Positions 14,534 to 19,856 of a stretch of DNA of 25,316 nt are shown here, one piece after another (position 1 is the stretch's first letter; every line of letters starts with the position of its first letter). Origin of the DNA: a virus; IMG/VR virus record IMGVR_UViG_3300022074_000347, positions 1-25,316 of that record; one strand, written 5' to 3'. Position numbers and translations under genes: made by a program. Under the pieces are notes generated by a model, which was not told the DNA's origin, did no database searches, and worked only from the letters and a program-made list of their open reading frames with translations.

Positions 14534-15859
14534 TTAAAATCCAGAGTAGAAGAATTGTTGTTGTCTGGTGAGTCCAGTCAGGTTGTTTGCTCCAATACCT
14601 GCACCAAATGTAACGTCGTCTAGTGTTACGTTTGAAGTAGATAATAGAGTAGCGTCAGCGTCAGGAAACTTAATCGTTCTCGGACCTGTGATGCCTTCAG
14701 CAGAGAGTGTTACTTGTCCTTGCGTATTACCAGTCGTTTTAACGATTGGTGAGTTGAGAGTCTTATTAAAAAGTTCTCCTGCGGACTTCTCTGATACAAG
14801 TATATTGTATGTGTCTGCACCTCTATTTAGATTATCTGTATTAGGGAATCTGAAGATTTCATTAGTTGATGTGTTTACGTTAGCAACGTTAAATGTAATC
14901 TTTTTCGTTGCGTCAGTATTGTCAACTAAGAGTAGTCCTTCAAACAACTTGTTAGAGATAGTCTGAGTAGTGGTTGTACCAACAAATGTCATTGACAAAT
15001 CAGGAACCGTAAGGGTTCTGTTTGCAGTTAGAGCAGATGTGTTGAAGATTGCATAGTTAGTTGCAGTCTCAGCGTTTGCTGCCAACTTTAAATCAACCAG
15101 AGTTTTTGTAAGTAAAATCTGTTCTGATTTAGTATCAATAAGTGTTGATGCTGTAGCGGTAGGTTCTGCAGTAGTTGTTACTGTACCTGCATCAGGTAAG
15201 AAGTAAGAACGTCTTGCGCTTGAAGTAGTTGCCCAGTTAATCTGGAAAATTGCTTCTTCCGTGTTATCAGTAATAACAAGGTTATCCTCATCAATAAGGA
15301 TAGTTTTATTCGTTAGCGTTTGCTGAGTATCAGAACCAACAATGGTAGTTCCGTTACCAGAGGTAATAGCGGGAAGGGTGAAGATACGAGTATTAGTACC
15401 AGTACCAACACCAGAAACTTCAAATCTTGCTTTAGGACCTTGAGCATCTTCTAGAATAAACGTTTGGTCAGAGATAACAAAGTTACCCGTAACTTTAATA
15501 GCACCCGTACCTTTCGGTGCGAGAACAATATCAGTATTGTTTGCAACGTCATCAACTGCAGTTATATACAATGATGTGCTACTATTACCATTATCAATAC
15601 GAGTGCAGTAGAAACCACCATCACCAAAGGCAATGCCGAGTTGATCGTATGCATTTTGATACAATCCACTATCTCTGTCCAAGTCAAAACACAATCCTGG
15701 GGATGCTTTTGTTCCCTGCGACAGTCCTTTGAATAACTGATTTATTTTTGCCTTTCTGTTTGGAATCAACGGGTCAGACACCACTACAGGAAGAATTGCT
15801 TCTCCCGACAGATTAGAGTCTGCTATTGTATCCAGTTGTGAAATCTTTCTGGTTCCCAC
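14534..15859 (-). CDS. Virion structural protein with fibre repeats (441 aa)
   Basis: A 441-residue protein from a GTG start at 15859; no in-frame ATG precedes it. The N-terminal ~150 residues (MGTRKISQLDTIADSNLSGE, AILPVVVSDP) form a distinct head. Five degenerate repeats follow, starting near residues 157, 215, 279, 332 and 392. Each carries a strand such as RIFTLPA, RSYFLPDAG, RTLTVPDL, EIFRFPN or RTIKFPDAD, and several add a segment like TQQTLTNKT or TTQTISNKL. This is the well-known tail-fibre repeat with a spacing of about 60 residues. The gene opens the second structural cluster, directly behind a perfect late promoter. Confidence 0.8.
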   Translation of the reverse strand: MGTRKISQLDTIADSNLSGEAILPVVVSDPLIPNRKAKINQLFKGLSQGTKASPGLCFDLDRDSGLYQNAYDQLGIAFGDGGFYCTRIDNGNSSTSLYITAVDDVANNTDIVLAPKGTGAIKVTGNFVISDQTFILEDAQGPKARFEVSGVGTGTNTRIFTLPAITSGNGTTIVGSDTQQTLTNKTILIDEDNLVITDNTEEAIFQINWATTSSARRSYFLPDAGTVTTTAEPTATASTLIDTKSEQILLTKTLVDLKLAANAETATNYAIFNTSALTANRTLTVPDLSMTFVGTTTTQTISNKLFEGLLLVDNTDATKKITFNVANVNTSTNEIFRFPNTDNLNRGADTYNILVSEKSAGELFNKTLNSPIVKTTGNTQGQVTLSAEGITGPRTIKFPDADATLLSTSNVTLDDVTFGAGIGANNLTGLTRQQQFFYSGF

Positions 15860-15888: not shown

Positions 15889-15896
15889 TATTTATA
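15889..15896 (-). promoter_or_regulatory. Perfect T4-type late promoter (TATAAATA)
   Basis: An exact TATAAATA lies 8 bases after the stop of the 226-residue protein gene and 29 bases before the GTG start of the 441-residue structural gene. It marks the change from the sigma-70-driven cassette back to late structural genes. Confidence 0.75.
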
Positions 15897-16698: not shown

Positions 16699-16837
16699 CT
16701 CTAAGTTGATGATAAACTAAAACAAACGCATCACAACGAGGACAAGATAGATTAGTTTCTATCTCATACTCAGAATCCTCTGCATCATGATCACCACCCC
16801 ATATTAGGTTTGGGAAACCGCATGCCCAACAGTTCAT
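16685..16837 (-). CDS. Small zinc-ribbon protein (50 aa)
   Basis: A 50-residue protein from the ATG at 16837, overlapping the preceding stop by 4 bases (ATGA). It has two cysteine pairs, C3-x2-C6 (MNCWACGFP) and C32-x2-C35 (LSCPRCDAF), the pattern of a zinc ribbon. Between them lies an acidic segment (WGGDHDAEDSEYEIE). The arrangement CW-x-CG...WGGDHD...CP-x-C resembles tiny zinc-ribbon proteins I associate with T4-like cyanophages. It is probably part of the early cassette. The function is unknown; a role in binding RNA polymerase or nucleic acid would be speculative. Confidence 0.75.
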   Translation of the reverse strand: MNCWACGFPNLIWGGDHDAEDSEYEIETNLSCPRCDAFVLVYHQLRDENP

Positions 16838-17049
16838 TGTTCAGTTCCTACAAATTGTTTACGAAACTCTTCTACCTGCTCTTGAACTTCTGGTTCAATA
16901 GGTGAAACTTCAGCAACAGGAGTGACTAAAACTGCTGCACCTGATTCAAGTCTTACTTTCCAACATACTCTGTTAGTTTCAGTAAGTTCAGTAATGAAAC
17001 CGAGGTATTCCTCGTATTGTTTCATTGTAATGTCTACAGGACCAATCAT
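16834..17049 (-). CDS. Small unknown protein (71 aa)
   Basis: A 71-residue acidic protein (MIGPVDITMKQYEEYLGFI, then a strand pair WKVRLESGAAVLVTP, then a helical acidic C-terminus VQEQVEEFRKQFVGTEQ). No family is recognised. Its ATG overlaps the preceding stop by 4 bases (ATGA), and its own stop overlaps the zinc-ribbon start in the same way, so three genes in a row are translationally coupled. It is probably transcribed from the sigma-70 promoter at 17262-17290 and expressed early. Confidence 0.75.
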   Translation of the reverse strand: MIGPVDITMKQYEEYLGFITELTETNRVCWKVRLESGAAVLVTPVAEVSPIEPEVQEQVEEFRKQFVGTEQ

Positions 17050-17255
17050 TCTGTTTCTGCAAAAAAGTAAGTAATCATGTCAGAATCTACTAATTCAGTG
17101 ATCTCAGAGACAGCATCGGTAAAATCCTGTGCTCCTTTTTTATTGAAATCGAAATCAACGACTCTATCAAATCCCTCGTTGTCCAGTATTTTGATGGAAC
17201 GTTTTGAAAGATTAATAAAAACGTGTTCAAGAAAGGTAAGGGGTTCTTCGTTCAT
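17046..17255 (-). CDS. Small unknown protein, leaderless early gene
   Basis: A 69-residue acidic protein (MNEEPLTFLEHVFINLSKRS, IKILDNEGFDRVVDFDFNKK, and a helical C-terminus). No family is named with confidence, though the pattern resembles small proteins I associate with T4-like cyanophages. It is the first gene after a consensus sigma-70 promoter. The TATAAT ends six bases before the ATG, so transcription should start at or beside the A of the start codon. There is no room for a Shine-Dalgarno, and no other Met occurs until residue 59, so the start at 17255 is well fixed and the message is probably leaderless. Confidence 0.75.
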   Translation of the reverse strand: MNEEPLTFLEHVFINLSKRSIKILDNEGFDRVVDFDFNKKGAQDFTDAVSEITELVDSDMITYFFAETE

Positions 17256-17261
17256 GAATCT

Positions 17262-17290
17262 ATTATAGGGTAGAAGGACAATCCTGTCAA
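17262..17290 (-). promoter_or_regulatory. Consensus sigma-70 promoter (-35 TTGACA, -10 TATAAT)
   Basis: On the minus strand TTGACA (17290-17285) and TATAAT (17267-17262) are separated by exactly 17 bases. Both hexamers match the consensus perfectly. The -35 box begins one base after the gp5-like stop codon. Host RNA polymerase should read this promoter directly, as expected for an early phage promoter. Confidence 0.85.
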
Positions 17291-17291
17291 G

Positions 17292-19856
17292 TCAATTTAA
17301 GAAAATTGTTTTGGCAGTTACTCTAAATGTACCGACAACATCAGTTGTCATGTTTCTCTTGGCAGAAATATTGATATCACCACCTGCTCCATTTGAATCT
17401 TTATTGACTGTGTGTTTGCTAACACCTGCTACAGTAACATAATGACCACCACTCAATACTTCTGTATCCATACCAGTTGAACCGCATGTAGTAGAAATAG
17501 GTCCATCTTTATTTGTTGTTATGATAGGAGGTACAGTAGCATGAGGAGATGCAGGGATCACGTTTGTTATGATTGAACCTGCACAGGTAGTTCTAATGCC
17601 AGGTTTATCTGCTTTATCAGAAACAGGTTGATTTATGTTATTAAACATATTTGGTGTATTATGAGTAATTGCTGTATCTGCACTTATTATTATCTCTTTA
17701 GTTGCCAAAAAGTCTTGTTTATCAGATTTGAGTGAATAATCATCAATTATACCTTCATATTTTTTAGAACCAACTAATATTTTAGATGCTTGAAGTTGGA
17801 AATCAGCACCTGCTACGTTCATATCTAAATCAGAATCAAATTTTATTACATGTTTTTGAACTTTTCCTTTATCTTCAGCATCCTTTCCATTCTTATCAAC
17901 TTGTTTTGCTGCACCAACAGCATCCATGAAGAAACCGCCACCAACTTCAAGGTGCATATCACCAGTGATCTTTAATCTATAATCACCTTCAACGTTAATA
18001 ACCTTATCACCATCAATATTTGAACATTCATCACCTATAACATCTATAGTATGATTACCTGCATATGTTGAATGGTCTGCAACTAAGTTACCTGTATCAT
18101 CTTTTGTGTTTCCTCTGTTAGTCTTCTTATATGCTTCTAACTTTGCTTCTCTCTCCTCAGGAGTTAAATCTGGATTACTCTTCTTCAACTCTTTCATATA
18201 AATGTATTCAGCATATGTATTGTTATTGATATTAACAGATGAATGAGTTGTACCACTAGGTTCTTTGATGACGTGTGCTTGACGACCTGGGGTTCCTATA
18301 TGATGATCATACCCACCAGTTATAAATGTCGTAGCTACCTGTAAATAGGGATCTGCTTTTGAAAATATTTGATCTAAAACTCCTGTACCTGCACTTTCTC
18401 CCGCACAACTACCTCTACCACCTCTAACTTTATTAATATTTGCTAATTCTGCATCAGTACAACTTGTAACACCAAATAGAGGATAGAATCCATTTTTTGC
18501 TTTACCACCAGAGGGTTTTCTATCACAACTGTCACCAGAAGCAAAGTTTGAGAATAATGCTACAAGTCCCGTCAATCCCGCAAGACCATTTTTCATTAAA
18601 TCAGATCCAGGCTCAAATACTGAATCTCCCTTTTCCCAGTTTGCTATGATTTCAGCAGCACCTGCTACTGTACTAGTTGTTGCTTTAACTGTAGCAATAA
18701 CTTTTTTAACATCAGCAAGCACGTTTTCTACATTACATACAATACTATCAATGACTGTTTGTACACCTTGAGTAAGCATTTCCAACTTACTGATAGCACC
18801 ATTAAGCATATTATTGATTAATGTGTTGATGGTTGCCATCGGAGCATCAATAAAACCTGCTATCTGTCCATCAATAGCACACATTGAAGAGAGTAATGAT
18901 GTGATTGCGTTTTGAATCTGGATTTTTGCTGCAAAAGGTACTGAACCAAACAATGATCCTAGTATTGATCCTAATAAACCACCTAAACCACTAGAGAGGT
19001 TTGCAGTAGACATTCTGATACCAGATACAATCTGTGTAAAGACAGCACCCATAAAGTTTTTCAACTTTCTGGTTAAATTTTCTAATGTAACTACTTTACC
19101 AGAAACTATGTCAATAAAATTACCAGTATCATCAGTAGCAACTAGGGTAGAAGAAGTGTCTACAATATCTTCCATCAGATAGCTCAACTTTGCTTCTACA
19201 GATTTCCAAGGTCCACCTACACCATTTGCAGTAGGAATAGGATTTTCTGGATTTCTACCTTTTAACGGATTACCAGAACTACCTGATATATGAACACCTA
19301 TGTTATTTGGTGACCCTGGTCCTGCAGGTTCTGGTTGTATCTTACTTCCTGGAATTTTTACATCATTTCTTCCACTGGGATTACTTTTATTATTAAATTT
19401 GTTACTATTAGCACCTGCAGGTGGTCGTAATGCAGGATTTATAACGGGTTCCTCCATATTTTCACCCGTAAAAGCAAATGTGTGCTCTTTTCCACTCTCT
19501 ACTGCTTTTTGCACACGCAAAACACCGATAACTACTGGCATTTGAGCGTCTTCACCATCCATGAAGAAACCCATGACAATAGCACCTGCCTGTAGTTGTC
19601 CTGATGATTCACCTTGTGCATCATTACCTGCTTGTGAGGTATGTTGTAATACAGTCGCCCATGGCAACTGCTCAGTAGGAAGGTTTGCAACCGTTCCACC
19701 TCTGGGATTAGTATAATATCCAAGCACACGAACTTTGACCCTACCGAGTTCCATAGGATCTTCGTTATCTTCTATTTCTCCGACCCACCAATAAAATCCG
19801 TCCTTTCCGACGAAATTGGTTTTAGGTTCGTTTAGGATGCCTTCAACTGTTTGCAT
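17292..19856 (-). CDS. 5: gp5-like baseplate hub/spike protein, no lysozyme domain
   Basis: An 854-residue protein. Residues ~20-115 form the OB-fold of gp5/VgrG-type hub proteins (YWWVGEIEDNEDPMELGRVK, LPWATVL, VMGFFMDGEDAQMPVVIG). A Pro/Gly/Asn-rich linker (~140-210) follows. Residues ~220-440 are a hydrophobic helical region (LGGLLGSILGSLFGS, ATINTLINNMLNG). No T4-lysozyme-like catalytic motif was seen where T4 gp5 has one. Four cysteines lie around 444-484. From ~595 come beta-helix repeats of the spike (HTIDVIGDE, VINVEGDYRLKITGDMHLEV), and the protein ends in a beta-rich domain. The protein likely forms the trimeric needle under the hub. The symbol is assigned by domain similarity. It is preceded by an AT-rich spacer with a degenerate late promoter. 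Confidence 0.85.
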   Translation of the reverse strand: MQTVEGILNEPKTNFVGKDGFYWWVGEIEDNEDPMELGRVKVRVLGYYTNPRGGTVANLPTEQLPWATVLQHTSQAGNDAQGESSGQLQAGAIVMGFFMDGEDAQMPVVIGVLRVQKAVESGKEHTFAFTGENMEEPVINPALRPPAGANSNKFNNKSNPSGRNDVKIPGSKIQPEPAGPGSPNNIGVHISGSSGNPLKGRNPENPIPTANGVGGPWKSVEAKLSYLMEDIVDTSSTLVATDDTGNFIDIVSGKVVTLENLTRKLKNFMGAVFTQIVSGIRMSTANLSSGLGGLLGSILGSLFGSVPFAAKIQIQNAITSLLSSMCAIDGQIAGFIDAPMATINTLINNMLNGAISKLEMLTQGVQTVIDSIVCNVENVLADVKKVIATVKATTSTVAGAAEIIANWEKGDSVFEPGSDLMKNGLAGLTGLVALFSNFASGDSCDRKPSGGKAKNGFYPLFGVTSCTDAELANINKVRGGRGSCAGESAGTGVLDQIFSKADPYLQVATTFITGGYDHHIGTPGRQAHVIKEPSGTTHSSVNINNNTYAEYIYMKELKKSNPDLTPEEREAKLEAYKKTNRGNTKDDTGNLVADHSTYAGNHTIDVIGDECSNIDGDKVINVEGDYRLKITGDMHLEVGGGFFMDAVGAAKQVDKNGKDAEDKGKVQKHVIKFDSDLDMNVAGADFQLQASKILVGSKKYEGIIDDYSLKSDKQDFLATKEIIISADTAITHNTPNMFNNINQPVSDKADKPGIRTTCAGSIITNVIPASPHATVPPIITTNKDGPISTTCGSTGMDTEVLSGGHYVTVAGVSKHTVNKDSNGAGGDINISAKRNMTTDVVGTFRVTAKTIFLN

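Follow-up and report, generated by a model that had tools for sequence, protein, structure and literature searches.

A conserved host-type promoter and a predicted leaderless gp21 mRNA in a lineage of T4-like cyanophages

In a 25,316-nt stretch of viral DNA (the window, i.e. the whole stretch that was analysed) we identified a perfect consensus promoter whose -10 hexamer lies six nucleotides before the start codon of a small gene, gp21. From comparison with related phages we consider it likely that a conserved host-type promoter drives gp21 and the following gene gp22, and that the loss of a 13-nt leader segment has made the gp21 mRNA leaderless. In this model a sigma-70/SigA promoter located after gp5 and conserved in T4-like cyanophages would drive gp21, gp22 and probably genes beyond. 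The lineage of the window would have lost 13 nt of the 5' leader, among them part of an AGGAG motif, which leaves the -10 hexamer 6 nt upstream of the gp21 ATG; the gp21 mRNA should therefore begin with AUG. Ribosomes would bind this 5'-terminal AUG directly, probably by 70S-type initiation. Both the exact transcript start and the use of a host sigma factor are predictions of the model.

The promoter and the genes around it

The window is part of a T4-like cyanophage genome (Kyanoviridae) and contains gp5, tail and head protein genes, and CpeT-like and ferredoxin-like genes; its nearest isolates are metaG-MbCM1 and P-RSM1. The cyanobacterial host assumed in an earlier note on this DNA is well supported, both by the relatives, which infect Synechococcus and Prochlorococcus, and by the Kyanoviridae CpeT-like, ferredoxin-like and gp5 genes. 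The promoter occupies the 36 nt that lie between the gp5 stop codon (17292-17294) and the 69-aa gene gp21, named here after the Syn9 nomenclature and distinct from T4 gene 21. Read on the minus strand, the sequence across promoter and start codon is ...AAATTGACTTGACAGGATTGTCCTTCTACCCTATAATAGATTCATGAACGAAGAACCC..., with the following features.

17292-19856, minus: gp5, baseplate hub / tail lysozyme; a single nucleotide separates its stop codon from the -35 hexamer
17290-17285, minus: -35 hexamer TTGACA; invariant in the 6 distinct lineage sequences, metaG-MbCM1 and P-RSM1
17268-17284, minus: promoter spacer GGATTGTCCTTCTACCC, 17 nt; length invariant, sequence variable
17267-17262, minus: -10 hexamer TATAAT; invariant in the window lineage
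17256-17261, minus: discriminator AGATTC, 6 nt; equal to the P-RSM1 bases before ATG minus the 13-nt leader segment
17255-17253, minus: ATG start codon and predicted transcription start (A = +1), from the spacing and as sole in-frame start
17046-17255, minus: gp21, 69 aa, phrog_662 / T4-GC 341 ("Syn9 gp21"), no assigned function
16834-17049, minus: gp22, 71 aa, phrog_375 / T4-GC 342, annotated as "Phd-like antitoxin"; its start overlaps the gp21 stop as ATGA

The order TTGACA, 17 bases, TATAAT, six bases and ATG at 17255 was exactly as the earlier note had given it, the strand, which it did not name, being the minus strand. Sigma-70 (SigA-type) hexamers are expected 16-18 nt apart, and here all 12 of 12 hexamer positions matched the consensus with a 17-nt spacing. 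This was the single exact occurrence of TTGACA-N15..19-TATAAT in the 25.3-kb window. Shuffled versions of the window contained on average 0.03 perfect sites (3 of 100 shuffles had one), and a first-order Markov model gives a probability of ~6e-6 for the layout with exactly 17 nt lying 6 nt upstream of any of ~20 gene starts. Weaker promoter-like sites (9-10/12) were as frequent in the window as in the shuffles, as would be expected if the consensus match were a coincidence and no promoter existed; evidential weight was therefore placed only on the perfect match and its conservation.

A T4 late promoter, i.e. a TATAAATA box without a -35, was rejected for gp21: no TATAAATA-like match was found at the promoter site, where the sequence is TATAATAG with a perfect -35. 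Elsewhere in the window an exact T4-type late promoter box TATAAATA was present at 15889-15896 on the minus strand; the gene that follows ~29 nt downstream encodes a virion structural protein and starts with GTG at 15859.

Because of the ATGA overlap of start and stop, gp22 is probably translationally coupled to gp21 and would be initiated in this way. No terminator was predicted in the 36-nt gp5-gp21 gap, so gp5 transcripts may read through into gp21, which may additionally be translated from such a leadered polycistronic mRNA lacking a Shine-Dalgarno (SD) sequence, as is probably the case for many genes of the window. The predicted structure of gp21 is a small beta-alpha fold (mean pLDDT 85). 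Its best PDB match, the FtsH periplasmic N-domain (E 0.075), was not significant and for this reason we claim no function. As a small conserved protein gp21 (phrog_662) accompanies phrog_375 across the family; no obvious toxin was found beside the Phd-like antitoxin gene (16834-17049, phrog_375).

Conservation of the promoter

The alignment across related cyanophages that the earlier note had proposed as a check bore out its description: in 12 related contigs, comprising 6 distinct sequences, TTGACA-17-TATAAT-6-ATG was invariant and free of indels. Among the 6 distinct sequences none of the 12 hexamer columns varied vs 11 of 23 in the spacer and discriminator (Fisher p 0.005, with the caveat that the columns share one tree and that the search pattern itself demanded the hexamers). 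All gp21 relatives with 61% identity or more that were recovered by protein search had the hexamers; within the lineage gp21 protein identity goes down to 61%. No isolate belonging to the lineage was found. Retention of the layout in the clade could partly be due to short common ancestry, though divergence between the proteins reaches 39%.

The gp5-gp21 gap also contains a -10 (TATAAT or TGCTATACT), usually together with a -35, in most of the T4-like cyanophages compared, and this holds for those of other genera. The Kyanoviridae gp5-gp21 promoter, as found in Syn9, S-SM1, metaG-MbCM1 and P-RSM1, has in common with that of the window the position after gp5, the downstream gene pair, the -10 and usually the -35; the sister phages metaG-MbCM1 and P-RSM1 additionally share the 17-nt spacer. 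The distance from the -10 to the ATG differs, being mostly 19-25 nt in the relatives, often with AGGAG or GGAG, and 6 nt in the window lineage. In 14 cyanophage isolates 81 perfect consensus sites were oriented with the genes and 2 against them, and a reversed control pattern gave 8, although some of these sites fall within coding regions and are not necessarily promoters. Both this strand bias and the conservation in place of the gp21 site across the family speak against a coincidental match, which is rejected on conservation and which we regard as extremely improbable. Judged by this comparison of sequences, the gp21 promoter in the window is very probably genuine and is conserved in place across the family.

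The gp21 promoter of Syn9 (L023 / L270, Syn9 18628-18656) is also a perfect consensus site. Its spacer contains a perfect 7-bp inverted repeat, ACACCCT-GGAC-AGGGTGT, which is absent from the window lineage.

Loss of the leader segment and the predicted transcript start

Between the -10 and the ATG, metaG-MbCM1 and P-RSM1 have 13 extra nucleotides (ACATAAGTACAGG, including part of the AGGAG ribosome-binding site), and the window lineage is without exactly these. The alignment to the two phages contained a single clean 13-nt gap, its ends ambiguous by one base, which disrupts the ribosome-binding site and retains the -35 and the 17-nt spacing. The sequence AGATTCATGAAC is identical in the window and P-RSM1. 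In the gp5 tree the 8 short-layout rows formed one clade (100/100), sister to the leadered metaG-MbCM1 and P-RSM1 (100/99), with leadered phages outside. The simplest history would thus be one loss of the leader followed by conservation, the short layout representing the derived state.

ATG 17255 was the only in-frame ATG, GTG or TTG after the preceding stop and ahead of the conserved HVFIN core of gp21, and it aligned with the annotated starts of homologues (metaG-MbCM1 MNDTYLEHVF). Misplacement of the start codon, which the earlier note had listed as a refuting outcome, was rejected on the basis of this single in-frame start. No SD sequence was found before the gp21 ATG (anti-SD duplex dG +0.1), in agreement with the claim that there is no room for a ribosome-binding site. 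In leaderless genes the -10 is expected ~6-7 nt before the start codon; in gp21 the distance is 6 nt and conserved in the clade. A discriminator of this length would place +1 at the A of ATG 17255. Transcription usually initiates at a pyrimidine-purine step, with which the gp21 bases at -1 and +1 are consistent: all six sequences had a pyrimidine (C or T) at -1 and A at +1. As no other N-terminal in-frame start exists and a pyrimidine is always found upstream, a 5'-AUG transcript is the best prediction. By folding, the 5' end of the gp21 mRNA was no less structured than shuffled sequence.

Transcription might start 1-3 nt off the A. The leader would then be minimal, 1-2 nt for initiation at -1 or -2, or the transcript would begin within the AUG, and the message would function as near-leaderless or fail to encode gp21. 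Start-site choice at a single promoter does vary by a few bases, as in cyanophage Ma-LMM01, where transcription starts 6-8 bp downstream of the -10 (PMC5780444), but in every variant here a pyrimidine precedes the A, which is the first purine within the normal distance range, and we find such a shift quite unlikely.

The promoter might also serve mainly gp22 and the genes downstream, with gp21 made mostly from gp5 read-through and its leaderless end tolerated but hardly translated. The gap without a terminator and the commonness of SD-less starts in this phage would suit such an arrangement, and gp22, overlapping gp21, is on any such transcript. A leader cut anywhere else would, however, suit gp22 equally, and the 6-nt gap and the ATG have stayed intact, free of indels, as nearby bases changed; we consider this arrangement unlikely.

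We favour leaderless initiation at gp21 itself. In the window lineage gp21 is, on comparative grounds, a well-supported predicted leaderless phage gene whose evolutionary origin is unusually clear; the lineage seems to add a new predicted example to a class of message that is known already. The leaderless initiation proposed in the earlier note thus stands as a comparative prediction, the layout being kept across the whole lineage, whereas the lack of an SD sequence is in itself ordinary in this phage because most genes in the window are without one. It is very doubtful that the lineage switched gp21, and gp22 by coupling, from SD-led to leaderless initiation under selection, favouring 70S ribosomes, possibly when infection alters initiation factors or RBS-dependent translation. 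A leaderless phage mRNA is plausible in the host, since Prochlorococcus is believed not to depend on SD sequences and, in strain MED4, 6-8% of the primary transcription start sites lie at most 10 nt from the start codon (PMC5607370).

Rarity of the layout and comparison with known leaderless genes

The 14 isolates were scanned for rarity of the layout, yielding 80 perfect sites; 50 of these were followed within 80 nt by an ATG with an open frame of at least 45 codons. In 48/50 the ATG was at least 16 nt downstream, mostly 20-29 nt, and the 6-nt layout is therefore rare within cyanophages. The exceptions were P-RSM1, with an ATG at 0 nt and a better start at 24, and P-SSM7, with an ATG 5 nt after the perfect promoter. 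P-SSM7 and L013/L014 at first resembled further leaderless cases but were not counted: homology favours a downstream GTG with GGAG in P-SSM7 and a downstream start, with the ATG 21 nt away, in L013/L014.

In viral contigs we searched for perfect promoters followed by an ATG at one set distance at a time, with at least 120 matches per distance. Among the matches listed, the fraction of ATGs that began an ORF of 60 aa or more was 0.29 (2 nt), 0.45 (5), 0.65 (6), 0.52 (7), 0.41 (8) and 0.16 (10), a comparison that is not perfectly even because distances of 2, 5 and 8 nt put the TAA of TATAAT in frame and those of 6, 7 and 10 do not. Almost no SD sequence stood in front of these ATGs among the matches listed, and none of the genes was related to gp21. 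The peak at 6 nt suggests a recurring leaderless class behind consensus promoters in phages and adds independent weight to the leaderless reading of gp21. The layout, called unusual in the earlier note, is so within marine T4-like cyanophages but not for phages in general. None of the papers searched was, by title and abstract, concerned with leaderless mRNAs in cyanophages.

The mRNA of lambda cI (PRM) is leaderless, with a 5'-terminal AUG, the -10 directly before the start codon and no SD sequence. The gp21 layout is alike in its predicted 5'-AUG, adjacent -10 and lack of an SD, and differs in belonging to a T4-like cyanobacterial phage and in having fully consensus -35 and -10 hexamers; its 5' end is predicted from sequence. 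Leaderless initiation in lambda is cited in Zheng 2011 (PMC3160421), where TA-led bacterial genes are also treated, i.e. leaderless genes with the "-10 region adjacent to ORF", which have likewise been described in Deinococcus-Thermus (PMC12340547). As in gp21, TATAAT precedes the ATG by a few bases and leaderless transcription is predicted from the spacing. In contrast, gp21 is one phage gene, perfect promoters in its family normally stand 20-29 nt from the ATG, and the 13-nt loss is visible. The sister cyanophages with and without the 13-nt RBS-bearing segment, otherwise having the same promoter and gene, form a natural before/after pair, with which the change from SD-led to leaderless initiation, and the way cyanobacterial ribosomes initiate on leaderless mRNAs, can be tested directly.

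Further observations were made in the isolates. At the promoter of gene 55, annotated as the late sigma factor in P-SSM4 (125200-126000, L903), an inverted repeat TTGACA-N3..5-TGTCAAG lies over the -35 in most isolates (other examples: L261, L269, L273, L283, L289, L295, L302, L311, L317, L327, L333) and resembles a conserved operator at which a regulator might bind. A perfect TTGACA-17-TATAAT was also found in many isolates inside apparent conserved coding sequence, the YEEKGVDFYGDVDED region (L281, L285, L290, L305, L312, L334), where coding coincidence or an internal promoter is the probable explanation.
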